Shown here: one piece after another, positions 30,416 through 59,587 of the stretch
Layout: every line of letters begins with the position of its first letter
How positions within the stretch are numbered: position 1 is the first letter of the stretch
Position numbers and translations under genes: made by a program
From: Salmonella enterica subsp. enterica serovar Choleraesuis
Lineage (GTDB): Bacteria > Pseudomonadota > Gammaproteobacteria > Enterobacterales > Enterobacteriaceae
DNA: 64,000 nt
Direction of reading: 5' to 3'
Assembly: GCA_022846635.1 (NCBI GenBank)
Contig: AP025685.1
Span: 620,001-684,000, forward strand
The notes under the pieces: model-generated
Told to the model about the DNA's origin: nothing
Databases searched by the model: none
Seen by the model: only the letters and a program-made list of their open reading frames with translations

Positions 30416-30846
30416 GCAGTGTATTCGCGGGCGGTATCTGGCTGATGCCGCCGCTCTGCAAATGAGATTTATCAATAACTAATTCCATATTTTAAATATG
30501 GTTATTGCCGGTCGAGTTTTTAATATCTATTCAACTATCTCCTCCCCGCTTTACTCTCCCCATACCCGTCGAAACCAGCATCAATATTAATAATGGCTTT
30601 AGTTCGGCAGTCAGGGGAATTGAGCCCCAAAGTGTTTAATTAAAACAGGTCTCTTGCTAAGTAAATAAAAAAGGGGACGGAGTCGATTAGTTTGTGCTTG
30701 TACAAAAAATAACCCGTTTGAATGTGCAGTTAATGCCCCTGACCTTTGAAAAGTGATATCGATCATTCTTTGACTGGCGATTATTGGAAAAATAGCGCCC
30801 AGGGACGTTCAAGGACATTTTGTTAATTCAAACGAGGATGGGCTTT
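30416..30846. other. 430-bp intergenic region upstream of the histamine genes
   Basis: No gene is seen. Notable elements are a GGCGG/CCGCC hairpin just after the isomerase gene without a T-run, a CCATATTT/AAATATGG palindrome near 30484-30501, and an FNR/CRP-like palindrome at 30753-30766. Composition is AT-rich in the middle. The region should carry the hdcT-hdc promoter. Confidence 0.5.
30753..30766. promoter_or_regulatory. FNR/CRP-like palindrome upstream of hdcT
   Basis: GTGATATCGATCAT matches the FNR consensus TTGATnnnnATCAA at eight of ten positions and also resembles the CRP site GTGA-N6-TCAC. Its centre is about 87 bases before the hdcT start. Control of histidine decarboxylase by low oxygen or catabolite state would be biologically sensible. 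The match is modest. Confidence 0.3.
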
Positions 30847-32193
30847 ATGGGAAATGTAAGCGCGGGTACCGCGCATAAAATGGGGCTAACGGCACTAACG
30901 CTGGTTACCGCCTCTAATATGATGGGCTCCGGGGTATTTATGCTACCGACCAACCTGGCCGGGGTGGGGTATATATCTTTGTGGGGCTGGTTATTTACTA
31001 TTATCGGCGTTATTGCCATTGCGCTGGTATTTGCCAAAACCAGCCTGGTTACGCCGCGTACCGGCGGTATAGTCGCTTACGCCAGCGATGCTTTTGGCCC
31101 ATTTATCGGATTTCAAACGACGGTTTGCTACTGGATTAGCGCCTGGGTAGGCAACGTGGCGCTGCTGGTGGCAGGTGTGGGCTACCTCAGTTACTTTTTC
31201 CCAATTTTGCACAATCCGGTTTACGGCAGCATTACGGCAATCGTCATCCTGTGGGCGTTTATTGTATTAGGGAGCTTCGGAGCGAAAACCGCCGGACGTG
31301 CGCAATCCTTTACCGCCACCTGTATGCTGATTGTCGTATTAGGAGTGGGGATCGTTGGCTGGTTCTGGTTTGAGCCTAAGTTGTTTACCGAAGTGTATAA
31401 CGGTACCGGCCAGAGCAACGGCTCGGCGATTGTTTCTGCCGCATCTATTGCGCTGTGGGGCTTCCTTGGCGTTGAGTCTGCGGTGGTATCCAGCGGCCAG
31501 GTTGATAACCCGGAGCGCACCGTTCCTCGCGCCACTGTATACGGTCTGCTGATTGCCTCTGTCTGCTATGTAGGTAGCTGCACCGTTATTATGGGCCTGG
31601 TTCCTCACGCTGAGCTGGTGAAATCCGCCGCTCCATTTGCCGATGCCGCTCGCTATATGTTTGGTGATATGGCCGGTAACATCGCATCAGCCATGAGTAT
31701 TATCGCTTGTTTCGGGTCTATCTCCGGCTGGTTGATCCTACAGTCCGAAGGGCCACGCGCTGGCGCTCAACAGGGCCTGTTCCCGAAAGTATTTGCTGAT
31801 ACCAATAAACACGATGTGCCAATGAAAGGGCTGATTATTTCCGGCGTGTTGATGAGCATCGTGCTGCTGCTTACCGCCTCTCCAGACCTCGCGGATCAGT
31901 TCAAAGTTGTTATTTTAATGTCGGTATTCGCTTCGCTGCTACCTTATATGTATGCCCTAATTGCGCTGCCAATCATTATGGTTTCTAAAAAGCTCAATCG
32001 CGGGCCGACCTTTATGTTCTACTGCGTGCTGACCGTGATTGGCATGATTTACAGTATCTTCGCTTTAATGGGGTCAGGTAGTGATTCCATCTTCTGGGGC
32101 ACAATTATGATGATGGTGACTATTCCGCTGTTTTCATTTGTTGCCGCTGGCCGTAATAAAAAAGGTCAGGAAATTCTTTACCTCGAAAAATAA
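30847..32193 (+). CDS. hdcT: Histidine/histamine antiporter HdcT (APC superfamily)
   Basis: A 448-residue APC-superfamily antiporter related to CadB, PotE and AdiC, with about 12 hydrophobic segments. The first helix contains the GSGVF motif (ASNMMGSGVFMLPTNLAG), and PRTGGIVAY follows as in CadB. It lies 36 bases before histidine decarboxylase, so it most probably exchanges histidine for histamine. I chose the ATG at 30847 with GAGGA eight bases upstream; an in-frame extension of nine codons is not supported. The same transporter-decarboxylase pairing is known in Morganella and other Gram-negative histamine producers. Confidence 0.88.
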   Translation: MGNVSAGTAHKMGLTALTLVTASNMMGSGVFMLPTNLAGVGYISLWGWLFTIIGVIAIALVFAKTSLVTPRTGGIVAYASDAFGPFIGFQTTVCYWISAWVGNVALLVAGVGYLSYFFPILHNPVYGSITAIVILWAFIVLGSFGAKTAGRAQSFTATCMLIVVLGVGIVGWFWFEPKLFTEVYNGTGQSNGSAIVSAASIALWGFLGVESAVVSSGQVDNPERTVPRATVYGLLIASVCYVGSCTVIMGLVPHAELVKSAAPFADAARYMFGDMAGNIASAMSIIACFGSISGWLILQSEGPRAGAQQGLFPKVFADTNKHDVPMKGLIISGVLMSIVLLLTASPDLADQFKVVILMSVFASLLPYMYALIALPIIMVSKKLNRGPTFMFYCVLTVIGMIYSIFALMGSGSDSIFWGTIMMMVTIPLFSFVAAGRNKKGQEILYLEK

Positions 32194-32229
32194 TCTTAAA
32201 TTATCGTCTGTTACAACATGGAGTTTATT

Positions 32230-33366
32230 ATGACTTTATCTATCGCCGATCAAAATAAATTGGATGCATTCTGGTCTTACTGCGTAAAAAACCGTTATTT
32301 TAATATCGGTTATCCAGAGTCTGCTGACTTTGACTATTCGATGCTGGAACGTTTTATGCGCTTCTCCATCAATAACTGCGGCGACTGGGGAGAATATTGT
32401 AACTACCTGCTCAACTCCTTTGATTTTGAAAAAGAAGTGATGGAGTATTTTGCCGGTCTGTTCAAAATCCCATTTGATGAAAGCTGGGGTTATGTGACCA
32501 ATGGCGGTACCGAAAGTAATATGTTTGGCTGCTATCTTGGCCGTGAGCTGTTCCCGGATGGCACGCTTTATTACTCTAAAGATACCCACTATTCCGTGGC
32601 AAAAATCGTCAAGCTGCTGCGCATCAAATCACAGCTGGTAGAGTCTCAGCCGAATGGCGAAATCGACTATGACGACCTGGCCAATAAGATTAAATCTTCA
32701 GGCGAACGCCACCCGATCATTTTTGCCAACATTGGTACTACCGTTCGCGGTGCTATCGATGATATCGCTGAAATCCAGCGCCGCATTGCGGATCTAGGTA
32801 TTCCGCGCCACGAATATTATCTGCATGCGGATGCGGCTCTGAGCGGGATGATCCTGCCGTTTGTTGATGAGCCTCAGCCATTCACTTTTGCCGATGGTAT
32901 CGACTCCATTGGGGTTTCTGGCCATAAAATGATCGGCTCGCCAATTCCGTGTGGCATCGTGGTCGCCAAGAAACGCAATGTCGACATGATTAGCGTGGAA
33001 ATTGACTATATTTCGGCACACGACAAAACCATCTCCGGCTCCCGTAACGGCCACACACCATTAATGATGTGGGCAGCAGTGCGCAGCCATACCGAAGCCG
33101 AATGGCGTCGCCGAATCAGCCATAGCCTGACCATGGCCAAATACGCGGTCGATCGCTTTAAAGCGGCGGGTATTGAAGTGATGTGCCATAAAAACTCCAT
33201 CACCGTGGTATTCCCGAAACCTTCGGAATGGGTATGGAAGAAACATTGCCTGGCGACTTCCGGTAACGTCGCGCACCTGATAACCACGGCCCACCATCTG
33301 GATAGCTCGCAGATAGATGCCCTGATTGATGATGTGATTACCGACTTAAAGCAGCGGGCGGCCTGA
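32230..33366 (+). CDS. hdc: Pyridoxal-phosphate histidine decarboxylase Hdc
   Basis: Hdc converts histidine to histamine and CO2, consuming a proton. The 378-residue product is a group II PLP decarboxylase closely resembling the Morganella and Klebsiella/Raoultella enzymes. It begins [20 protein letters not shown]. The PLP lysine is K233 in [10 protein letters not shown]201 in HADAA pairs with the cofactor nitrogen, and H120 in DTHYS stacks on the ring. Length equals the Morganella enzyme. It is not the pyruvoyl type of Gram-positive bacteria. With the antiporter it forms an amino-acid-dependent acid-resistance and energy-generating pair. Confidence 0.96.
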
Positions 33367-33532: not shown

Positions 33533-34801
33533 ATGAATACCAGTTTGCGGGCAATCCGCGGCATGCGTGATGTGCTGCCCGAAGAGACGCCAATATGGCA
33601 ATGGCTGGAAACTAAATTCCGCCAAATGGTTTTTCGATATGGCTATCAGGAGATGCGTTTGCCGCTGCTGGAGCCGGTGGCGTTGTTTGAACGCGCCGTT
33701 GGCGAAGCAACCGACATTGTGTCGAAAGAGATGTACAACTTTATGGATAAGAGCGGGGAGCACATCACCCTGCGTCCGGAAGGCACCAGCGGCTGTATGC
33801 GTGCGGTGCTGGAAAATAATCTGTGCTACAACAAAACGCAGCGCCTGTGGTATCAAGGCCCAATGTTCCGCTACGAGCGCCCGCAGAAAGGGCGGTTGCG
33901 CCAGTTCACTCAGTTTGGCGCTGAAGCCTTCGGCATGGCCGGGCCGGACGTAGATGCCGAAATGATCTTCATGCTTCGCGACCTGTTCCAGGAGCTTGGG
34001 CTACTGAACCACGTGCGTCTGGAGATTAACTCGCTCGGCACCCCGGAAGAGCGCAAGGCTCATCGCGAGCAGCTGGTCGCCTGGTTTAACGCGCATCGCG
34101 AGCAGCTGGATGAAGACAGCTTAAAGCGGCTGGAAACCAACCCATTACGCATTCTCGACAGTAAAAATCCCGATATGCAGCCAATGCTGGAACAGGCACC
34201 GAAGCTGCTCGACTTCCTCAATGATGAATCCCGCCATCACTTTGCCATGGTATGCGAACTGTTGGATAAGGCATCGATTCCTTATCGGGTTAATCCGCGC
34301 CTTGTGCGTGGCCTGGATTATTACACTCGCACCGTATTTGAGTGGATAACCGAGGAGCTCGGCTCTCAGGGTACCGTGTGCGGGGGCGGTCGCTATGACG
34401 GCCTGGCCGAGTTATTTAACCCTAAACCGCTTCCGGCCTGCGGGTTTGCTATTGGTATTGAGCGTCTGCTACTGCTAATTCAAACCGTAAGCCGCCAGGA
34501 TAATCCGCAGTGGCATTTTTGTCCGGATGTAGTTATCACCAGCGAATTACAGGACAGCGGGCTTAAGGCTCAGTTGCTGGCTGAAACGCTGCGACAGCGG
34601 GTAGAAGGGCTGAGCGTACTGGTGGATTGCAGCGGTGCGAAGCTTAAGCGTCAGCATCAGAATGCGCTGCAAAACAAATGTAAAGTCATCGTCACCATTA
34701 ATGCAGACTCCGGGATCCGCCTGTGGGATCTTGCTGCATCCCAGCAGATGGATGTCACTGAAAAAGAGCTGGTGAGCTGGCTGCAACAGCAGGGTCGCTA
34801 A
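33533..34801 (+). CDS. hisS: Second histidyl-tRNA synthetase (complete, probably active paralogue)
   Basis: A 422-residue class II HisRS. All catalytic positions are present with E. coli numbering: E83 and T85 in LRPEGT, R113 in the motif 2 segment MFRYERP, Q127 and E131 in FTQFGAEAFG. VRGLDYYTRTVFEW, GGGRYDG and motif 3 GIERLLLL are also intact, and an anticodon-binding domain follows (about 330-422). The housekeeping hisS normally lies elsewhere in the core (near bamB), so this is an extra copy placed with hdc. Histamine operons of Morganella are reported to carry a hisRS too. A likely role is to keep histidyl-tRNA charged while Hdc drains histidine (inference). Confidence 0.93.
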   Translation: MNTSLRAIRGMRDVLPEETPIWQWLETKFRQMVFRYGYQEMRLPLLEPVALFERAVGEATDIVSKEMYNFMDKSGEHITLRPEGTSGCMRAVLENNLCYNKTQRLWYQGPMFRYERPQKGRLRQFTQFGAEAFGMAGPDVDAEMIFMLRDLFQELGLLNHVRLEINSLGTPEERKAHREQLVAWFNAHREQLDEDSLKRLETNPLRILDSKNPDMQPMLEQAPKLLDFLNDESRHHFAMVCELLDKASIPYRVNPRLVRGLDYYTRTVFEWITEELGSQGTVCGGGRYDGLAELFNPKPLPACGFAIGIERLLLLIQTVSRQDNPQWHFCPDVVITSELQDSGLKAQLLAETLRQRVEGLSVLVDCSGAKLKRQHQNALQNKCKVIVTINADSGIRLWDLAASQQMDVTEKELVSWLQQQGR

Positions 34802-34921: not shown

Positions 34922-36742
34922 ATGGCAAGAAAAAACAGGCTTTTTATACCCGGTATGCCGCATTTGGTGCAGCTACGTGGACATAACGATGATGCGTTAT
35001 TTCGTGAATCGGAAGATTACACATCGTTTGGCCGCTGCCTGATTCAGGCCGCCCGGCGTTACGAGGTCGCAATCCACAGCTGGTCTTTAGCGCCAGAACG
35101 TATCTTGTTATTACTTAGTGCGCCGGACAAACAGGCGCTTGGTCGCTTTATACAGCATATAGGACGTAGTTACGTCCCTTATTACAATCGCCGCTATCAG
35201 CGTCACGGATCTCTTTGGGATAACCGTTATTTAAGTAGCCCGCTGGAGCCTGGGGTCTACTTTTTGCTGGTGAAGAAATATATCGAATGTGGTGAAGACG
35301 GCGTCAGCGGTCGCCACAGTTTTGGCGAGCAGCCAACAGATAGCATTACGCCACATCCGGTTTGGCAACAGCTCGATGCTGACCCCTCCCGGTGTCAGGA
35401 ACGTTATCAGGATTTTTGCCGCTCACCGCTAAATGCAACCCTGGTAGCCCGCATTCGCACAGCGCTTGAGCAGAACTGCCTGCTGGCAACGCCCAGAGTC
35501 AGCCAGAAACTGGAAAGCCGTCTCGAGCGTCCACTTCAGGCGCGCCATAGCGGGCGGCCGCGCAAGCACCATTATAATCCTGTCGAACAGTGGACGTGGC
35601 TGGAGCAGCAGGCCGAAGTCTTTCTGCGCCAGCACGGATACCAGCAAATTCGCCTGTCCCTGCTGGAGCGTCAGCCGCTATTTGCCGCAGGCGGGCCAAT
35701 GCTTTCCGGCAACGGGGAACTGCGCGGCGACGGCACCACCGGCTGCCTGCGTCTTATTGCCGCCCACCAGCATATTCCGGCCATGAGTCGGTTGTGGTAC
35801 GCCGGGGTGATGTTCCCCAAAACCGCCCCCAGCGTTGGCGTGCAGCAAAATCATCAGATAGGCATTGAGGCGTTTGGTATGCCTGGGGTGGATATAGAAC
35901 TCGAACATCTGGTAATGCAGGTTAACTTCTTCCGCCTGCTGGGGCTGAGCGACCGGGTAGAGCTGCATATCAACATGCTGGGTGAGGCAACGGCATTTGA
36001 ATCTTTCCGTCAGGCTTTGCGCGAGCATTATGGCCCATTGGCTCACATGCTGGCACCAACCCAACAAAAGTGGCTGGAGCAGCGCCCGGAATGGCTGCTG
36101 AATCATGATGATATTTTGCTGCAACGCCTGGCGCTCAACGCGCCGCGCCTGAATGATTTTGTCTCTGGTCAGTCGCAGGAGCGATTTTTGGCTTTGCAGC
36201 GGTCCCTCAGTGCTCTCGGGGTTGCCTGGCAACACGATCGCGGGCTTTTCCCCCGTAATGATTACTGCCAGCTGGTCTTTGAATGGCGCAGCCAGACCCT
36301 GGGCAATAACCTGGTTCTGTGCCGCGGCGGGCGCTACGACGCCTGCGCCAGCCGGATTCTTGAGCGGCCGGTCTATGCCTGCGGTTTTGCTTTTATGGTT
36401 GAGCCGATAATGGTGCTGTTGAGCGATACCCGGCATCGGGATAAAACGCGCCGCGAAGTCGATGTGGTGATTATTCCTGAGCAGCCGCGGGTCGCGGCCG
36501 CCGCGCTGTTACTTGGCCGCCAGCTACGTCAGCAGTTTCCACATCTCAGTATCGTGAACGACGGTTCAAACTTTCGCAGCTCAACCCGGCTGAAAAACGC
36601 CAGGCGGCTAGGCGCACGGTTTGTGGTGCAAATGATGGGTGATGGGGAGACGCTGCTGATTCAGGATAACCAAAACCAGCAATACGTTGAGTCATCGGCC
36701 GGGCAAATATTTGAACATTTGGCTAAAAATCTGCTTATCTAA
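34922..36742 (+). CDS. Fusion of a decayed IS200/RAYT-type transposase domain with a HisRS-like domain
   Basis: A single uninterrupted 606-codon frame with GGGAGAG seven bases before the ATG. Residues 1-215 look like a complete REP-associated (Y1) transposase: RLFIPGMPHLVQLRG, GSLWDNRYLSS, a candidate tyrosine Y120 in KKYIE, TPHPVW and a terminal GRPRK. The catalytic HUH site, normally like NHVHLLL, reads ERILLLL (59-65), so metal-dependent cleavage is probably lost. Residues about 220-606 follow HisRS in order. Motif 2 R113 is replaced by P299 and the motif 3 GIER arginine is gone (VEPIMVLL). The histidine-pocket equivalents Q312 and E316 and an RGDGTTG version of LRPEGT remain. I infer a nucleic-acid-binding, perhaps histidine-sensing protein, not a synthetase. 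Confidence 0.85.
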   Translation: MARKNRLFIPGMPHLVQLRGHNDDALFRESEDYTSFGRCLIQAARRYEVAIHSWSLAPERILLLLSAPDKQALGRFIQHIGRSYVPYYNRRYQRHGSLWDNRYLSSPLEPGVYFLLVKKYIECGEDGVSGRHSFGEQPTDSITPHPVWQQLDADPSRCQERYQDFCRSPLNATLVARIRTALEQNCLLATPRVSQKLESRLERPLQARHSGRPRKHHYNPVEQWTWLEQQAEVFLRQHGYQQIRLSLLERQPLFAAGGPMLSGNGELRGDGTTGCLRLIAAHQHIPAMSRLWYAGVMFPKTAPSVGVQQNHQIGIEAFGMPGVDIELEHLVMQVNFFRLLGLSDRVELHINMLGEATAFESFRQALREHYGPLAHMLAPTQQKWLEQRPEWLLNHDDILLQRLALNAPRLNDFVSGQSQERFLALQRSLSALGVAWQHDRGLFPRNDYCQLVFEWRSQTLGNNLVLCRGGRYDACASRILERPVYACGFAFMVEPIMVLLSDTRHRDKTRREVDVVIIPEQPRVAAAALLLGRQLRQQFPHLSIVNDGSNFRSSTRLKNARRLGARFVVQMMGDGETLLIQDNQNQQYVESSAGQIFEHLAKNLLI

Positions 36743-36761: not shown

Positions 36762-36791
36762 AAAAAAACCGACCTTCAGGTCGGTTTTTTT
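36762..36791. terminator. Bidirectional terminator between the fusion gene and pheP
   Basis: A perfect palindromic hairpin, AAAAAAACCGACC-TTCA-GGTCGGTTTTTTT, sits between the convergent genes with T-runs in both directions. Confidence 0.88.
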
Positions 36792-40544: not shown

Positions 40545-42101
40545 ATGGTTACTGGCACTCATTCGAACTCCGAATGCGTTTCTCAACCCTCCGCAAGCCA
40601 GCCTCTGGACTGCGCCGGGTTTTTGTTTAATGACCAGCAGCTTGTTTCTTACTCTCGCCAGACTCAGGCGGCCATCGCGCTGGTACTTCAACGTATGGGG
40701 CAGGTCGATAAGCCGTTCAGCGGCATTTTGCCTCATGAGCTGGCCCCCTTGTTTGCCAGCGTCGATCTCGACCAGCCCTTAGGCTCCAGCGCTGAAGCGC
40801 TTGAGGAGCTGAGCAAACTGTGGCTGAAAGACGCGGTGTGGTTCCATCATCCGCGCTATGTCGCGCACCTGAATTGCCCGGTTGCTCTGCCTTCATTGCT
40901 GGCGGAGCAGCTCATGAGCGCAGTTAATAGCTCGGTCGATACCTGGGACCAAAGCGCCGGGGCCACGCTGATTGAACAGAAGGTGATTGACTGGACACTA
41001 CAGCGCCTGGGCTTACCGGAGGGGGCCGACGGTATTTTCACCAGTGGCGGTACTCAGTCTAACCTGATGGCGATGCTGCTGGCGCGTGATAGCTGGTACC
41101 AGCGCCATCACAACGGATACCTGATTAAACAACGCGGACTGCCGCCGGAAGCCGCGAAATGGCGGATCTTCACTTCCGGGTTAAGCCACTTCAGCATCCA
41201 GAAGTCCTGCGCCATCCTGGGCCTGGGCTACGATGCGGTCGTTACCGTCGAGACCGATGAACACTACCGGATGGATGCCGAAAAATTGGCCCAGGCGCTT
41301 CGCCACAGTCGCGAACAGGGGCTGATACCTATCGCCGTTGTCGCTACCGCCGGAACGACCGATTTTGGCAGTATCGACCCCATCACCGACATTGCCTCTT
41401 TGTGCGAGCAGCAACAGCTCTGGCTGCATGTGGATGCGGCTTACGGCTGCGGTTTGCTGGTCTCGCCAACCCAACGCCAGCGTCTGGCAGGCATTGAGCG
41501 CGCCGATTCGGTAACTATCGACTATCACAAATCCTTCTTCCAGACCGTTAGCTGCGGAGCCTTCTTCACGCGGGATGCGCAAAACCTCGGCCACGTGACA
41601 GTGCATGCCGACTACCTCAACCCGCTCAGCGCACAGCAGGAAGGTACGCCGAACCTGGTCAACAAAAGCATTCAAACTACCCGCCGTTTTGACGCGCTGA
41701 AAATGTGGATGACGCTGCGGGTAATGGGATCCGACGTGCTGGGCCAGGGATTTGATGCGCTGCTGGCACTGGCGGAACTGACTCATCAGCGCCTGGCCGA
41801 GCACCCGGAGATCGAGGTATTGCACGCGCCGGAGCTGACGACCCAGGTATTTCGCTTTGTCCCGCAAGAAGAGCTGAGCGCTAGCCAGCTGGATGAGATT
41901 AATGCCCAGATTCGTAAGGCGCTGTTCCGCGATGGCAATGCCGTTGTTGCCGGAACCAAAGTGGCGGGCCGCCAGTATCTCAAATTCACCCTGTTGAATC
42001 CGGCAACCGGAATAGCAGATATCGAACGGGTTATTGCGCTGATAGCGCAAAACGGCAAACGGCTGACCGGGCAGATTAGCCTGCAGGCCACTCCTGCGTG
42101 A
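40545..42101 (+). CDS. dfoJ: Lysine decarboxylase DfoJ of desferrioxamine synthesis
   Basis: DfoJ makes cadaverine, the diamine backbone of ferrioxamines. The 518-residue protein is a group II PLP decarboxylase of the DdcC/glutamate-decarboxylase type. The cofactor lysine is K329 in DYHKSFFQ and D297 in HVDAAYG contacts the ring nitrogen; FTSGGTQSNLMAML binds phosphate. Its stop overlaps the region just before dfoA (11 bases between the stop and the chosen dfoA start). A Fur box lies upstream. It could in principle use ornithine to make putrescine, but the dfo context favours lysine. Confidence 0.92.
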   Translation: MVTGTHSNSECVSQPSASQPLDCAGFLFNDQQLVSYSRQTQAAIALVLQRMGQVDKPFSGILPHELAPLFASVDLDQPLGSSAEALEELSKLWLKDAVWFHHPRYVAHLNCPVALPSLLAEQLMSAVNSSVDTWDQSAGATLIEQKVIDWTLQRLGLPEGADGIFTSGGTQSNLMAMLLARDSWYQRHHNGYLIKQRGLPPEAAKWRIFTSGLSHFSIQKSCAILGLGYDAVVTVETDEHYRMDAEKLAQALRHSREQGLIPIAVVATAGTTDFGSIDPITDIASLCEQQQLWLHVDAAYGCGLLVSPTQRQRLAGIERADSVTIDYHKSFFQTVSCGAFFTRDAQNLGHVTVHADYLNPLSAQQEGTPNLVNKSIQTTRRFDALKMWMTLRVMGSDVLGQGFDALLALAELTHQRLAEHPEIEVLHAPELTTQVFRFVPQEELSASQLDEINAQIRKALFRDGNAVVAGTKVAGRQYLKFTLLNPATGIADIERVIALIAQNGKRLTGQISLQATPA

Positions 42102-42112
42102 GGGATTTCGCA

Positions 42113-43414
42113 ATGAAAGAGACTATCTACGATTTTATCGGTATTGGTATTGGGCCATTTAACTTAGGAATGGCCTGCCTGGCTGAGCCGCTGGAAGGGG
42201 TTAATGGCCTGTTCCTCGATCAGAAAAGCGGCTTTGACTGGCACCCGGGGATGATGCTGGAAAGCTCTCATCTTCAGACCCCTTTTATGGCGGATCTGGT
42301 GACACTGGCTGACCCTACCAGCCGCTATAGCCTGCTCAACTACATGAAGCAGAAAGGAAAAATATATCAGTTCTACATTCGGGAGAACTTTTTCCTGATG
42401 CGCAAAGAGTATAACCAGTACTGCCAGTGGGCCAGCGAACAGCTGAGCAACCTGCGCTGGAATACTCGCGTTGAGAATGTGCGGTGGCTGGCTGAGCGCG
42501 AATGTTACGAAGTGCATAGCGTTGACACTAAAACCGGTCAGGGTCTTAGTCTGCTGACCCGTCGGCTGGTGCTGGGCACCGGGCCGGTAGCCTGGATGCC
42601 GGAGTGCTGCCGCCCGCTGCGCGACCGGCTGGTGCACTCCAGCCAGTATCTGGCAAATAAAGAGCGGCTACAGAAGCAAAGTTCGGTCACGGTGCTGGGC
42701 AGCGGCCAGAGTGCAGCGGAGATTTTTTACGACCTGCTAAGCGATATTGATAAACATAACTATCGCCTGAGCTGGATAACCCGCGCGCCGCGTTTCTTCC
42801 CGCTGGAATACACCAAACTGACGCTGGAGATGACCTCTCCTGAGTGGGTGGACTACTTCCATGCGCTGCCTGCGGAAAAACGCGATGCCATCAATGCGAC
42901 CCAGAAAGGATTGTATAAAGGTATCAATAGCAGCCTGATTAACGATATCTACGATTTGCTGTACGTGAAGCGCCTGGATGGCGAGCTGGACGTACACATG
43001 TTTACCCACTCGGCGCTGACCGGACTGAGCGCGATGCCGGACGGTCAGCTCAGGCTAACCCTGCACCAGGACGAACAGGGCGAAAGCTACACCCGCAATA
43101 CCGAAGGTCTGGTCATGGCGACCGGCTACCACTATCAGCCGCCGATGTTTATTGAGGGCATTAGCTCTCGCCTGCGTTGGGATGATAAAGGCCGCTATGA
43201 CGTACAGCGCAATTACAGCATCGACCGCAGCAATACGATATTTGTCCAGAACGCCGAGCTGCACACCCACGGTTTCGTCACGCCGGACCTCGGCATGGCC
43301 TGCTACCGCAACTCAATGATCCTGCGGGAAATCGCGGGACGTGAAGTGTATCCGGTGGAGCAGCGTATCGCCTTCCAAACCTTCCCGGCACAATCGGAGA
43401 GCCGCTATGAATAA
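42113..43414 (+). CDS. dfoA: Cadaverine N-monooxygenase DfoA
   Basis: A 433-residue flavin-dependent N-hydroxylase of the IucD/SidA family. It hydroxylates cadaverine to N-hydroxycadaverine. The FAD fold is GIGIGPFNLG near residue 8, the NADPH site is VLGSGQSAAEIFYDLL near residue 195, and the C-terminal ATGYHYQPP motif is present. GAGGGA seven bases before the ATG at 42113 supports that start; a GTG overlapping the dfoJ stop is possible but less likely. It overlaps dfoC by eight bases. Confidence 0.94.
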   Translation: MKETIYDFIGIGIGPFNLGMACLAEPLEGVNGLFLDQKSGFDWHPGMMLESSHLQTPFMADLVTLADPTSRYSLLNYMKQKGKIYQFYIRENFFLMRKEYNQYCQWASEQLSNLRWNTRVENVRWLAERECYEVHSVDTKTGQGLSLLTRRLVLGTGPVAWMPECCRPLRDRLVHSSQYLANKERLQKQSSVTVLGSGQSAAEIFYDLLSDIDKHNYRLSWITRAPRFFPLEYTKLTLEMTSPEWVDYFHALPAEKRDAINATQKGLYKGINSSLINDIYDLLYVKRLDGELDVHMFTHSALTGLSAMPDGQLRLTLHQDEQGESYTRNTEGLVMATGYHYQPPMFIEGISSRLRWDDKGRYDVQRNYSIDRSNTIFVQNAELHTHGFVTPDLGMACYRNSMILREIAGREVYPVEQRIAFQTFPAQSESRYE

Positions 43415-45764
43415 CGTACTTTATTCCTGCGCCCGGCCAGCCGGGCTGTTCACGCTACGCCCATGGCAGCCCGAAGATGCCGCCATGGTGCACGGCTGGG
43501 TTACTCAGCCTTACGCCAGCTTTTGGGGCATGGGTCAGCAGAGCGAGGAGCAGGTCGCCGGGTTTTATAACAACCTCACCGCCGGTAACCCCAATGCCAC
43601 GCTTATCGGCTGCTGCGATGGCCAGCCGGTCTTTTTGATGGAGTTCTATCGGGCAGCCGATGACGAGGTCGGCAAATTTTATCCTGCTGCCGCCGATGAT
43701 TACGGCATGCACCTGCTGCTGGCCCCGCCCGAAAAGCCACGGGCTCAGTTCAGCTGGCAGGTGTTCTGCACCGTAATGGACTACATGTTCAGCCTGCCGC
43801 AGGTGGCCAGGGTGGTGGTGGAGCCAGATGCCCGCAACCATAAAATCCACCGCCTCAATAAGCGGGCCGGATTCCGCTATCAGCACACTATCGATATGGG
43901 CCACAAAACCGCCTGGCTCGCCTTTTGTCAGCGCGAGGACTATCAGAAAGCGCTTTTTCAGGAAACGTTAACCATGAACAACAGCTCCGCACTTCTTCAC
44001 GGCCAGCACCTGCATGGCGAACACTGGACGACGGCCAACCGCCTGCTGGTGCGTAAGGCTATTGCCGAATTCGCCCACGAAAAACTGCTCGCCCCCCAAT
44101 TACAAAGCGACGGCAGCTGGCTGCTGGCCGTGCCGGAAGGTGAGGCAGTGTATACCTTCCGCGCCCGCCGCCTGGCGCTTGACCACTGGTCAGTAGATGC
44201 CAGCTCGCTCGCTAAAAGTGAGAACGGCCAGCCGCTGGCGCTGGATGCTCTGCAATTTATCGTCGAGTTTTATCAGCAGGTCGGTATCCCTGACAACATG
44301 CTGGCGACATATATGGAAGAGATCTCCAGCACTTTATGCAGCAGTGTTTACAAGTTGCAGAAAGGCAATCCGGACAGCCAGGCCCTGGTGCATGCTGATT
44401 TCCAGACCGTAGAGGCTTCAATGACCGAAGGGCACCCTTGCTTTGTGGCGAACAACGGGCGCATTGGTTTTGATGCCCGCGACTATCTGGCCTATGCGCC
44501 GGAAGCCGCGACTCCAGTACGCCTTATTTGGGTGGCGGTGCATCGCCGCAACGCGCATTTCGCCAGCCTCGATGAGCTGAGCTACCAGACGCTGATGTGC
44601 GAGGAGCTGGGCCAGCACACGATTGATAACTGGAACGCACGTCTAATGGAGCAGGGGCTGGAGCCGCAGGATTACCTGCTGATGCCGGTACATCCATGGC
44701 AGTGGTACAACAAACTGCTGACAGTCTTCGCCGCCGATATCGCCAGCCGCGATATTGTCTGGCTGGGTGAGGGGGATGATAGCTATCAGGCCCAGCAGTC
44801 AATCCGCACTTTCTTCAACCATAGCCAGCCGCAGAAACGCTACGTTAAAACGGCACTGTCGGTACTCAACATGGGCTTTATGCGCGGTCTGTCGCCTTAT
44901 TACATGGCGACCACTCCGGCAGTCAACCAGTGGCTGGAAGGCGTGGTAAATAACGACGAGTGGCTGCAACAGTGCGACTTCCGCATCCTGCGTGAAGTCG
45001 CAGCCATCGGTTATCACAACCGTTATTACGAACGCGCGCTGAAGGGCGATTCAGCCTACAAAAAAATGTTCGCTGCGCTGTGGCGTGACAACCCGGTTGC
45101 CCGACTACAGCCGGGGCAGCGCCTGATGACCATGGCATCGCTGCTGCATATCGATCACCATAATCAACCGCTGCTTCCGGCGCTGATTAAAGATTCGGGC
45201 CTGGAGCCGCAGGCGTGGATCGATAGCTATCTGAATTGCTACCTCAGCCCGCTGCTACACTGCTTCTATAAGCACGACCTGGTGTTTATGCCACACGGCG
45301 AGAACCTGATTCTGCTGTTTGAAAACAATGTGCCGGTCAGCGCCTATATGAAAGATATCGGCGAGGAGATAGCGGTACTCAATCCGGATGCGGTGCTGCC
45401 GGAAAAAGCCCAGCGTCTGGCGGTGGATGTGCCGGAATCGCTGAAAATTCTGTCGCTGTTTACCGATGTGTTTGACTGCATCTTCCGCTTTATCAGCGCC
45501 ATTTTGGATGACAGCGACACCATGACTCAGGAGCAATTTTGGGAACGCGTGGCGGCGTGTATCACCCGCTATCAGCAGGCTCACCCGCAGATGGCCGCGA
45601 AGTTTGAACGCTACGATATGTTTGCACCTTCATTCCAGCTGTCGTGCCTGAACCGCCTGCAACTGGCTAACAACCAGCAGATGGTCAACCTGGCCGATCC
45701 TGCCGGGGCACTGAAATTTGCTGGTGAGCTGGAGAACCCGGTTGCGGCATGGAAGAATCGCTAA
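43407..45764 (+). CDS. dfoC: DfoC, acyltransferase-NIS synthetase fusion for desferrioxamine assembly
   Basis: A 785-residue two-domain enzyme. Residues 1 to about 188 form a GNAT-like acyltransferase (LRPWQPEDAAMVHGWV; VVVEPDARNHKIHRLNKRAG) that should succinylate or acetylate N-hydroxycadaverine. Residues about 190-785 form an IucA/IucC-type NIS synthetase (HPWQW near 429, MPHGENLILLFENNV near 630) that condenses the units to ferrioxamine. The same fusion is known in Erwinia and Pantoea DfoC. The gene overlaps dfoA by eight bases. A ribosome-binding site and ATG occur exactly at the domain boundary (43974). A terminator follows the gene. Confidence 0.94.
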   Translation: MNNVLYSCARPAGLFTLRPWQPEDAAMVHGWVTQPYASFWGMGQQSEEQVAGFYNNLTAGNPNATLIGCCDGQPVFLMEFYRAADDEVGKFYPAAADDYGMHLLLAPPEKPRAQFSWQVFCTVMDYMFSLPQVARVVVEPDARNHKIHRLNKRAGFRYQHTIDMGHKTAWLAFCQREDYQKALFQETLTMNNSSALLHGQHLHGEHWTTANRLLVRKAIAEFAHEKLLAPQLQSDGSWLLAVPEGEAVYTFRARRLALDHWSVDASSLAKSENGQPLALDALQFIVEFYQQVGIPDNMLATYMEEISSTLCSSVYKLQKGNPDSQALVHADFQTVEASMTEGHPCFVANNGRIGFDARDYLAYAPEAATPVRLIWVAVHRRNAHFASLDELSYQTLMCEELGQHTIDNWNARLMEQGLEPQDYLLMPVHPWQWYNKLLTVFAADIASRDIVWLGEGDDSYQAQQSIRTFFNHSQPQKRYVKTALSVLNMGFMRGLSPYYMATTPAVNQWLEGVVNNDEWLQQCDFRILREVAAIGYHNRYYERALKGDSAYKKMFAALWRDNPVARLQPGQRLMTMASLLHIDHHNQPLLPALIKDSGLEPQAWIDSYLNCYLSPLLHCFYKHDLVFMPHGENLILLFENNVPVSAYMKDIGEEIAVLNPDAVLPEKAQRLAVDVPESLKILSLFTDVFDCIFRFISAILDDSDTMTQEQFWERVAACITRYQQAHPQMAAKFERYDMFAPSFQLSCLNRLQLANNQQMVNLADPAGALKFAGELENPVAAWKNR

Positions 45765-57115: not shown

Positions 57116-59587
57116 ATGGTTCTCAGGCTCAAAACAAAATTAAAAATAATAGCGCTCCATGTTTTTGTCACCTGTTACTGTCCGGTGGCGCTGGCCGATA
57201 CTGCCATCGAATTTAATACCGATGTATTAGATGCCGCCGACCGTACTCATGTCGATTTAACCCGTTTTGCCAGCGATAACTATGTGACCCCTGGCGTCTA
57301 TTTGCTGGATGTTCAAATAAATGGTCGCAGTATCGATCAGGAAAAAGTGCGCTACATCCCTCTGGCCGGTGGCAAAGAGAGCCGCGCCTGTCTGAGTGAA
57401 GATCTTATCTCCCGTTTGGCTCTAAAAGATGAGGCCAGGGAAAAAATTACCGCGATAAGCGAAGGCTGTTTCACGCTGGAGAATCTGCCGGGCGCCCGAC
57501 TGACTAACTATGCCGGGACGCTAAACATTGTCGTCCCTCAGGCATGGATGAAATATAACGACCCGGACTGGACTCCGCCTGAGCGGTGGGACAACGGTAT
57601 TGCCGGGGCAATTTTCGATTACAGCCTGAGCGGCCAGACCACCCATCAGTTAGATCACAGTGAAAATTACAGCTCGCTTTCGGGCTATGGCCAGGCCGGT
57701 TTTAACGTCGGCGGATGGCGTCTGCGCGGCGAGTATCAAACCAGCTATTACAGTACTAACCATCAGTTCGATTTTGACTGGAACCAGTTCTACGCTTATC
57801 GCCCGCTGCCGATGATGGCCGCCAAACTGACGGTAGGGGAGATTTACCTTAATTCGCAAGTGTTCGATACCGTGCGCTTTACCGGAGCAAACCTGATAAG
57901 CGATGAGCGTATGTTGCCGCCGAACCTTCAGGGATATGCGCCGGAAGTTCATGGGATAGCGAAAAGTAGCGCCAAAGTTACCGTTAGCCAGAATGGCAGA
58001 ACGATTTATGAAACCACGGTTCCCGCCGGGCCGTTCAATATCCAGGATTTGCGCAGCTCGGTGCGCGGTACGCTTGACGTTCGGGTTGAGGAGCAGGATG
58101 GATCGGTTTCTACCTTCCAGGTTAATACGGCAAATCTGCCTTATCTGACCAGGCCTGGCTACGTGCGCTATAACATAGCAGGCGGGAAGCCCTCGAACTA
58201 TAACCATAAGTTACAGGGGCCGGAGTTTGTCTCCGGGGACTTTTCATGGGGGATCTCTAACGCCTGGTCGCTCTATGGCGGAACCCAAACGGCGGGTACA
58301 GATTACAGCGCACTTTCGCTGGGGGTCGGTCGCGATCTCTATGTTATCGGCTCAATGTCGTTTGATGTCACTCAGTCATTCAGTAAAGACCGGGATGGCA
58401 ACCGACTCTCCGGCTCCTCATACAAAGTGAGCTACGCCAAGACCTTTGATGATTACAACAGCTCTATCAACTTTGCCGGTTATCGGTTTAGTGAAAAAGA
58501 GTACCGCACCATGTCGCAGTATCTCGACGATCGCTATGACGATTATGACAACGTGGGCCGGGAGAAAGAGTCTTACACCATTACCGGGACTAAAACTTTC
58601 TGGGCCGATAAACCCGATCGGGCTACCACGGTATTCCTTACGTTTACCCATCAGAACTACTGGGACAGAGGCAGTCAAAATCGCTACGGAATGTCTCTGG
58701 GCCGCTCGCTGCGCGTTGGCTCTATTAAAGGTATCACTACCAATCTCTCGGCTTATCGCACTGAATATCGCGGTCGTCAGGATGACTCACTGGCGCTATC
58801 CATCTCTATTCCGGTAGGCGATAACAAATGGGCCGGATTGGATCTGCAATCTAACAACGGCAAGACCAGCCCGATGGCCAGCTACACCGACAACAGCGAC
58901 TACAACAATCTCTGGCGAATTCGTGCCGGTGCGAGCCAGAACGGTTATGCCAATGTTGATGGTTACTACCAGCGCCGTTCGCAGCTGGCCGAAATCAATG
59001 CCAGCGCCAGTTATCAGCAGGATCGCTATATGGCGTTAAGCAGCACTCTGCGCGGCGGATTCACTGCCACTCGCCACGGCGCGGCTATGCATAACAGCGG
59101 CGCGACCCTCGATACCGCTCGCATTATGGTCGATACCAATGGAATCAGCGGAGTTCCCCTCAATAACGGTCAGGCAAGGACCAACGCCTTTGGCATTGCG
59201 GTAGTACCGGATGTAGTGAGTTACACCAGCTTTGATACCCGGGTCGATGTCGACGATATGGATAGCAGTATCGAAGCCGCGAAGGGAATTAGCACGACGA
59301 CGCTGACTGAAGGGGCTATTGGCTATCAGGCTTTCGGTATGGCGAAAGGTGAAAAAATGATGGCCACGATCCGTCTGGCTGACCACAGCGTGCCGCCGTT
59401 TGGTTCTGAAGTTTTCAATGACGATGGGGTGAGCGTTGCCATGGTTCTGGATGGCGGCGTGGCCTGGCTTGCCGGAGTTAATCCCGATGAGAAGCTGAAG
59501 GTGAATTGGGCGGGTAAAACGCAGTGTCAGGTCGCCGTTCCCAAACAGGTATCCACAGCGACGACCGTGCTATTGCCTTGCCAGTAA
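57116..59587 (+). CDS. Fimbrial outer-membrane usher
   Basis: An 823-residue usher that forms the 24-strand secretion pore and assembles the pilus. A signal peptide is followed by the periplasmic N-terminal domain (EFNTDVLDAADRTHVDLTRF). The barrel contains the plug region, with YEATVPAGPF-like sequence seen as YETTVPAGPFNIQDL, and the C-terminal domains end in VLLPCQ with a paired cysteine. It resembles FimD. Here it precedes the chaperone gene, the reverse of the fim operon order. Confidence 0.95.
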   Translation: MVLRLKTKLKIIALHVFVTCYCPVALADTAIEFNTDVLDAADRTHVDLTRFASDNYVTPGVYLLDVQINGRSIDQEKVRYIPLAGGKESRACLSEDLISRLALKDEAREKITAISEGCFTLENLPGARLTNYAGTLNIVVPQAWMKYNDPDWTPPERWDNGIAGAIFDYSLSGQTTHQLDHSENYSSLSGYGQAGFNVGGWRLRGEYQTSYYSTNHQFDFDWNQFYAYRPLPMMAAKLTVGEIYLNSQVFDTVRFTGANLISDERMLPPNLQGYAPEVHGIAKSSAKVTVSQNGRTIYETTVPAGPFNIQDLRSSVRGTLDVRVEEQDGSVSTFQVNTANLPYLTRPGYVRYNIAGGKPSNYNHKLQGPEFVSGDFSWGISNAWSLYGGTQTAGTDYSALSLGVGRDLYVIGSMSFDVTQSFSKDRDGNRLSGSSYKVSYAKTFDDYNSSINFAGYRFSEKEYRTMSQYLDDRYDDYDNVGREKESYTITGTKTFWADKPDRATTVFLTFTHQNYWDRGSQNRYGMSLGRSLRVGSIKGITTNLSAYRTEYRGRQDDSLALSISIPVGDNKWAGLDLQSNNGKTSPMASYTDNSDYNNLWRIRAGASQNGYANVDGYYQRRSQLAEINASASYQQDRYMALSSTLRGGFTATRHGAAMHNSGATLDTARIMVDTNGISGVPLNNGQARTNAFGIAVVPDVVSYTSFDTRVDVDDMDSSIEAAKGISTTTLTEGAIGYQAFGMAKGEKMMATIRLADHSVPPFGSEVFNDDGVSVAMVLDGGVAWLAGVNPDEKLKVNWAGKTQCQVAVPKQVSTATTVLLPCQ

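Follow-up and report, generated by a model that had tools for sequence, protein, structure and literature searches.

A candidate histidine-sensing regulator of the histamine operon with a disarmed transposase domain and a histidyl-tRNA synthetase-like domain

What is the function of a protein that joins a transposase domain to a histidyl-tRNA synthetase (HisRS) domain, has lost catalytic residues of both, and is encoded beside the genes of histamine production? The question arises from a 64,000-nucleotide stretch of DNA from Salmonella enterica serovar Choleraesuis (hereafter the window, to which coordinates refer unless another record is named), in which four genes follow one another in one direction. 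These are hdcT1, encoding a histidine-histamine antiporter (30820..32193, + strand; TIGR04298 above cut-off; the start is probably at a downstream ATG, 30838 or 30847), hdc, encoding a PLP-dependent histidine decarboxylase (32218..33366, + strand; NF002748 above cut-off), hisS2, encoding a second HisRS with intact catalytic motifs (33533..34801, + strand; TIGR00442 above cut-off), and, as the last gene of the cluster, the fusion gene (34922..36742, + strand). A palindrome with A/T tails, AAAAAAACCGACCTTCAGGTCGGTTTTTTT (36762..36791, assigned to neither strand), is likely a bidirectional terminator ending the cluster, and a gene for a phenylalanine-type permease converges on the cluster beyond it; the palindrome was seen by reading the sequence and is absent from the listing of a separate scan. 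In the papers found, the hdc cluster is given as hdcT1-hdc-hdcT2-hisRS (PMC12072131), and they mention no dedicated regulator. The reading that we favour, and consider rather probable from the sequence comparisons below, is that the fusion is a one-component transcription regulator of the hdc operon, derived from a domesticated transposase, that would bind an operator and sense histidine or tRNA-His. Elsewhere in the window, at 40545-45764, lies a likely hydroxamate siderophore cluster, with genes for a diaminobutyrate/lysine-type decarboxylase, an amine N-monooxygenase and an IucA/IucC-type synthetase, then an MdfA-type exporter; the N-monooxygenase is related to histamine N-monooxygenase (TIGR04439, below cut-off).

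The reading frame is open throughout its 606 codons, as the first-pass annotation had described, and a domain search placed two Pfam domains in the one protein, Y1_Tnp at residues 32-122 (E 2e-6, which exceeds the gathering score) and tRNA-synt_His at residues 221-496 (E 1.2e-17), in agreement with the transposase-HisRS fusion proposed there. The N-terminal domain, residues 1-215 (34922..35566, + strand), is a dead Y1 transposase domain of TIRYT/RAYT-like type that has lost the HUH motif and ends in an invariant GRPRK. Residues 216-606 (35567..36739, + strand) form a dead HisRS-like domain, comprising catalytic and anticodon-binding regions, from which catalytic arginines have been lost and in which histidine-pocket residues are kept. 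Judged by homology, a domain of DNA-binding type and one of ligand type would be combined in a single chain. A full-length AlphaFold model made from 4 alignment rows was poor (pLDDT 49) and was set aside. No described protein with this architecture was found, and a literature search, most subscription papers lying outside its reach, returned no paper joining HisRS to REP-associated transposases and none in which a Y1 transposase serves as a regulator.

Twelve divergent enterobacterial genomes encode the fusion, in each case without a break in the frame. The recurrence of the same architecture in multiple genomes rules out an assembly error or a single-genome oddity, and the open frames and their conservation across the 12 genomes rule out a pseudogene. 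The 12 distinct proteins (605-633 residues) align over their full length and are 41-65% identical to the window protein, those of K. aerogenes NCTC10006 and Pantoea sp. BAV 3049 at 62% and 65%, respectively; further full-length homologues are found in Pantoea sp. 1.19 and in a Pluralibacter MAG. Pfam tRNA-synt_His was detected in all 12 and Y1_Tnp in 10. The K. aerogenes relative (LR134122.1 537709-539490) is annotated hisS_3, histidyl-tRNA synthetase, despite its missing catalytic residues. In the family sample of 392 genomes, one per species, 11 carry the fusion, the window's own counted, and the cluster hdc gene is found in exactly those 11 (Fisher p 1.4e-21), which bears out the linkage to hdc for which a survey had been suggested. 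The fusion gene adjoins hdcT1-hdc-(hdcT2)-hisS2 in every one of the 12 clusters, lying co-directionally downstream in eight and divergently upstream of hdcT1 in the remaining four; the divergent arrangement is typical of local regulators. In the order and class samples, all matches to the N-domain profile (the window excepted) were stand-alone genes or fragments, and three longer open frames that were inspected contained no sensor fusion of comparable type. A scan of viral contigs with the N-domain profile returned nothing, and phage records gave no match.

The C-terminal half matched HisRS better than HisZ in a profile comparison. It has the HisRS fold, as judged from a profile match to 1htt (E 7e-71), and a structure model of this half (pLDDT 77.5) gave HisRS entries as the best PDB matches (E 1.5e-28), among them 4e51 and 1kmm (E about 1e-28 to 1e-27), whereas the HisZ equivalog TIGR00443 scored 74.7 bits against a cut-off of 271.65 (E 7e-21). 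We mapped key residues, numbered as in E. coli HisRS, whose roles in the pocket and in activation we take to be those seen in HisRS structures. With HisS, including hisS2, the fusions share the fold, the C-terminal anticodon-binding region and the histidine-pocket residues: position 83 (E83) is acidic (D or E), and Q127, E131, Y264 and Y288 are each present, in 12/12, and R113 is present in 10/12. The fusions differ from HisS in lacking the N-terminal RGMxDxLP segment, the activation arginine R259 (HisA; 0/12) and the motif 3 arginine R311 (0/12); all catalytic and pocket residues are kept in the hisS2 products of the same clusters (12/12). The first-pass annotation had reported both motif arginines as lost and Q312 and E316 of the window protein as retained. 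The latter two residues are indeed present and the motif 3 loss is general, but the motif 2 arginine is kept in 10 of the 12 proteins, being lost only in the window fusion (P299) and in one other homologue, which has C at this position. The HisRS-like halves group as a single clade with support 100/100, clearly separate from both hisS2 and the housekeeping HisS, which shows that the domain did not arise by recent copying of hisS2. With R259 gone, the affinity for free histidine may be reduced.

It is conceivable, although we consider it improbable, that the fusion binds an operator as proposed here but senses uncharged or charged tRNA-His rather than free histidine, in the way that GCN2 senses tRNA through a HisRS-like domain. 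The full HisRS length is kept, with the anticodon-binding region, and tRNA charging would be relevant to the cluster because hisS2 is next door; however, the invariant positions include the amino-acid pocket, and the anticodon-binding region is less conserved, with Pfam HGTP_anticodon reached in only 1/12.

When residues 1-215 were used as a profile on the order and class samples, many stand-alone Y1 genes of about 240 residues were matched (E to 2e-53), in which NHVH and YIELNP are intact in nearly all those compared. None of the 12 fusions retains either HUH histidine, a PERIL-type sequence standing in place of the NHVH-type one; the window protein reads PERILLLL, which corroborates the HUH loss noted earlier as ERILLLL. 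The position of the catalytic tyrosine is Y in seven fusions and F in five, the N-P that follows it is lost, and the NPVRAxMV stretch is gone. What the fusions have in common with TIRYT/RAYT-like Y1 transposases (PMC3733652; PMC6006769) is the Y1 core, the GRxYVxYxNxxYxRxGxLWexR region and a C-terminal H-x2-[YW] and R-x3-[YF] pattern; what sets them apart, in addition to the lost residues, is the added HisRS-like domain. Q78, G81, R82, Y84, V85, N89, Y92, G96, L98, W99, R102, H145 and L151 are invariant among the fusions, as is GRPRK at the domain joint, and many of the invariant N-domain residues are common to fusions and active transposases. The transposase halves form one clade (support 100/100) with a long stem. 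The label "decayed" given earlier to this protein is misleading, since both halves are strongly conserved and each forms a single clade.

The identification of the domain as a RAYT holds in so far as it is Y1- and RAYT-like, but its nearest relatives are stand-alone RAYT-like proteins with TIRYT-type terminal repeats and not the GTAG-REP RAYTs. Later work has placed most TIRYT examples in a subclass with a helix-turn-helix-like C-terminal part (PMC6006769); residues 143-215 of the fusion gave no Pfam match to such a part. A stand-alone RAYT-like gene with GGGGACAGA terminal repeats and a C-terminal GRPRK (locus L053) most resembles the fusion in the style of its site and of its joint; it was considered as a possible ancestor type, but a long branch makes its place in the tree unsure. 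At another locus (L122), an intact RAYT-like transposase seems to share a 427-codon frame with an NYN/PIN-like domain and with copies of the terminal repeat that are in frame.

Comparison of the 500 bases before hdcT1 in the 12 clusters revealed a single near-invariant block, an A-rich stretch followed by GGGGACRGAGT, an element that is new here. In the window the proposed operator is AAAAAAGGGGACGGAGTCGATTA (30667..30689, + strand), with the core GGGGACGGAGT (30673-30683, + strand). With at most one mismatch, GGGGACRGAGT was found upstream of hdcT1 in 12/12 clusters, against 0.125/12 expected from shuffled sequences, and it was the sole site of its kind in each comparison locus (13-20 kb). 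Conservation in the region peaks in this block, at 1.79 bits per column versus 0.29 in the surroundings, and the block, near-invariant where its surroundings have diverged, is under selection. The 14-base sequence AAAGGGGACRGAGT occurs exactly once in the whole genome from which the window comes, at the hdcT1 promoter. A second operator copy in the genome, with one mismatch, falls within a gene, apparently argA, and was taken as chance; the window holds one more GGGGACRGAGT-like site with one mismatch, at 58216, about 22 kb from the fusion gene. Three loci with an hdc gene 70-75% identical and no adjacent fusion (L113, L114 and L124) carry no copy of the element nearer than two mismatches. Two of these, on Klebsiella and E. 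coli plasmids (L113 and L114; hdc about 75% identity), have no antiporter, hisS2 or fusion annotated next to hdc. The third (L124) is a second hdc, at 2816 of its contig and of 70% identity, beside siderophore-like genes and with neither fusion nor operator; this short contig may represent contamination, and the same assembly holds a fusion-bearing hdc cluster.

The element stands at a fixed distance from other promoter features. A CRP/FNR-type box, AGTGATATCGATCATT (30752..30767, + strand), is centred 76 bp past the end of the operator core, and in all 12 clusters a TGATN4ATCA box has its centre 74-76 bp beyond the element. A putative -10 hexamer, AAAAAT (30788..30793, + strand), lies 28 bp past the centre of the box, and a -10-like hexamer (TAGAAT, TAAAAT and similar) is found at the 28-bp offset in 8/12 clusters. 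The predicted layout fits a CRP/FNR-type box near -41.5 and an element near -120. As a separate matter, conservation of the box in all 12 hdcT1 promoters suggests that histamine production is under oxygen or catabolite control.

The fixed distance from the CRP/FNR-type box argues for an operator at the promoter and against an RNA or single-strand hairpin. The first-pass annotation had suggested that the protein could report histidine level and bind hairpins in its own operon; a histidine reporter linked to hdc remains likely from the sequence, but the comparison does not show the hairpin target, the conserved element being a promoter-upstream site with no convincing stem (z 1.7, versus 10.3 for transposase flanks). 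RAYT relatives do act on single-stranded hairpins (PMC8266576), and the fusion might likewise bind hairpins in operon RNA or single-stranded DNA and exert control after transcription has started. We think this very unlikely, given that the conserved site lies upstream of the predicted promoter with fixed spacing and little stem potential, and that no Rfam match, hence no known RNA element in the operon, was found within the 64-kb window.

The origin of the element is suggested by its near-identity to the terminal repeats of the transposase relatives. In the flanks of the stand-alone relatives, GGGGTC[AG]GAGT occurs in 48 copies at 19 of 58 loci, versus 0.25 in shuffled sequences. Their terminal-repeat consensus, ATAAAAGGGGTCAGAGTCAATTA, and the hdc element consensus, AAAAAAGGGGACGGAGTCAATTA, agree at 20 or 21 of 23 positions, depending on how core position 7 (A/G), variable in both sets, is counted. 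When only the flanking positions were scored, which had not been used in defining the element, the hdc sites had a mean of 6.3, whereas controls had a mean of -9.2 and a maximum of -4.0. The terminal repeats of TIRYT transposases were reported by Di Nocera and colleagues to share GGGGWSAS (PMC3733652), a motif type that GGGGACRGAGT fits, and the repeat core common to both sets is GGGG[AT]C[AG]GAGT. In most relatives the motif reads GGGGTC, compared with GGGGAC at the hdc site, a difference that counts against the favoured reading. The relatives' motif also sits between short inverted repeats that are largely gone in the hdc promoters, as would be expected if a substrate for strand cutting had become a plain binding site. 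There are no terminal repeats around the fusion gene, and the only copy in the comparison loci lies upstream of hdcT1; the fusions thus have one promoter site, unlike the transposase genes with several around them. Among the stand-alone loci (L030-L087) the terminal-repeat motifs differ by clade (GGGGTCAGAGT, GGGGTCGGTGAC, GGGGTCAGAGCCC and GGGGCCAGGT), and repeat and protein therefore probably co-evolve.

These observations bear on two further explanations. HisZ is a catalysis-free HisRS paralogue that regulates another enzyme, and the fusion, which scores on TIGR00443 (below cut-off), could by that precedent be a non-DNA-binding partner of HisS2, HisS or the decarboxylase, with the dead transposase part as a scaffold. 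We give this little credence: it leaves the terminal-repeat-like element and the divergent gene arrangement unexplained, and many N-domain residues common to active transposases are invariant. HisZ has in common with the fusion its nature as a non-catalytic HisRS paralogue and a regulatory role, which for the fusion is presumed from sequence. It differs in that the fusion's match to it is weaker than to HisS, in that the fusion carries a transposase domain as well as an anticodon-binding region, and in that no hisG linkage was present in the loci seen. The element could belong to another protein, as a regulator's site or a fossil transposase insertion unrelated to the fusion, and co-occurrence alone cannot prove contact, nor does the site match most transposase flanks at one base (A for T); but this is highly improbable for a sequence that is under selection, has at least two mismatches at the close hdc homologues without an adjacent fusion, and finds its match in the flanks of the very transposase group from which the fusion's domain derives.

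The presence of two disarmed halves beside the hdc genes, and of a promoter bearing the recognition sequence of the transposase family, suggests that the fusion is probably a histidine-sensing switch. According to this model, the Y1 domain would have lost strand cutting and retained target recognition, and would bind the A-rich GGGGACRGAGT element about 75 bp upstream of the CRP/FNR-type box at the hdcT1 promoter, the operator being a retained copy of the terminal repeat that its transposase relatives recognise. The HisRS-like domain would form no histidyl-adenylate and would instead sense free histidine, or charged or uncharged tRNA-His, through the kept pocket; the protein is probably dimeric, like HisRS, and ligand occupancy would alter its activity at the promoter. 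Activators usually bind far upstream, near -120, and because the site lies at such a position, activation would be expected when histidine is plentiful, a sign of control that we hold to be little better than an even guess. The distance and phasing suggest joint action with the CRP/FNR-type activator. Counting against the model, the stand-alone relatives may act on single-stranded DNA, whereas the operator would need duplex binding. We would neither favour nor disfavour the idea that a single-strand (Y1) transposase was domesticated jointly with its terminal repeat, the one as transcription factor and the other as operator, and that the transposase was then made histidine-responsive by fusion to a dead HisRS.

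The proposed regulator has partial parallels among known proteins. BirA, which acts at the operator of metabolic genes, has a class II synthetase-like ligand domain joined to an N-terminal DNA-binding domain, and by analogy the fusion would be similarly built; however, BirA is catalytic and has a winged helix-turn-helix, whereas the fusion consists of a dead Y1 transposase and a putative dead HisRS sensor. The TldR proteins are dead TnpB-derived regulators that use a guide RNA. They would be analogous as IS200/IS605-related genes domesticated as regulators through loss of catalysis, but TldR descends from the nuclease TnpB, whereas the fusion would employ a TnpA-like Y1 domain with its own terminal repeat as the target. 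We know of no metabolite-sensing regulator in which a Y1/HUH transposase supplies the DNA-binding domain, and the fusion, if the model is correct, would be the first known such use and would illustrate with unusual clarity the joint domestication of a transposase and its target. It would also show a route by which an aminoacyl-tRNA synthetase becomes a sensor within a transcription factor, and would account for a gene that bears the annotation "histidyl-tRNA synthetase" but encodes neither a synthetase nor a transposase. Histamine from enteric bacteria causes food poisoning and is linked to gut inflammation. The analysis names a candidate regulator, site and likely ligand for the hdc cluster, and the fusion, if it acts as proposed, would be a dedicated switch for bacterial histamine production.
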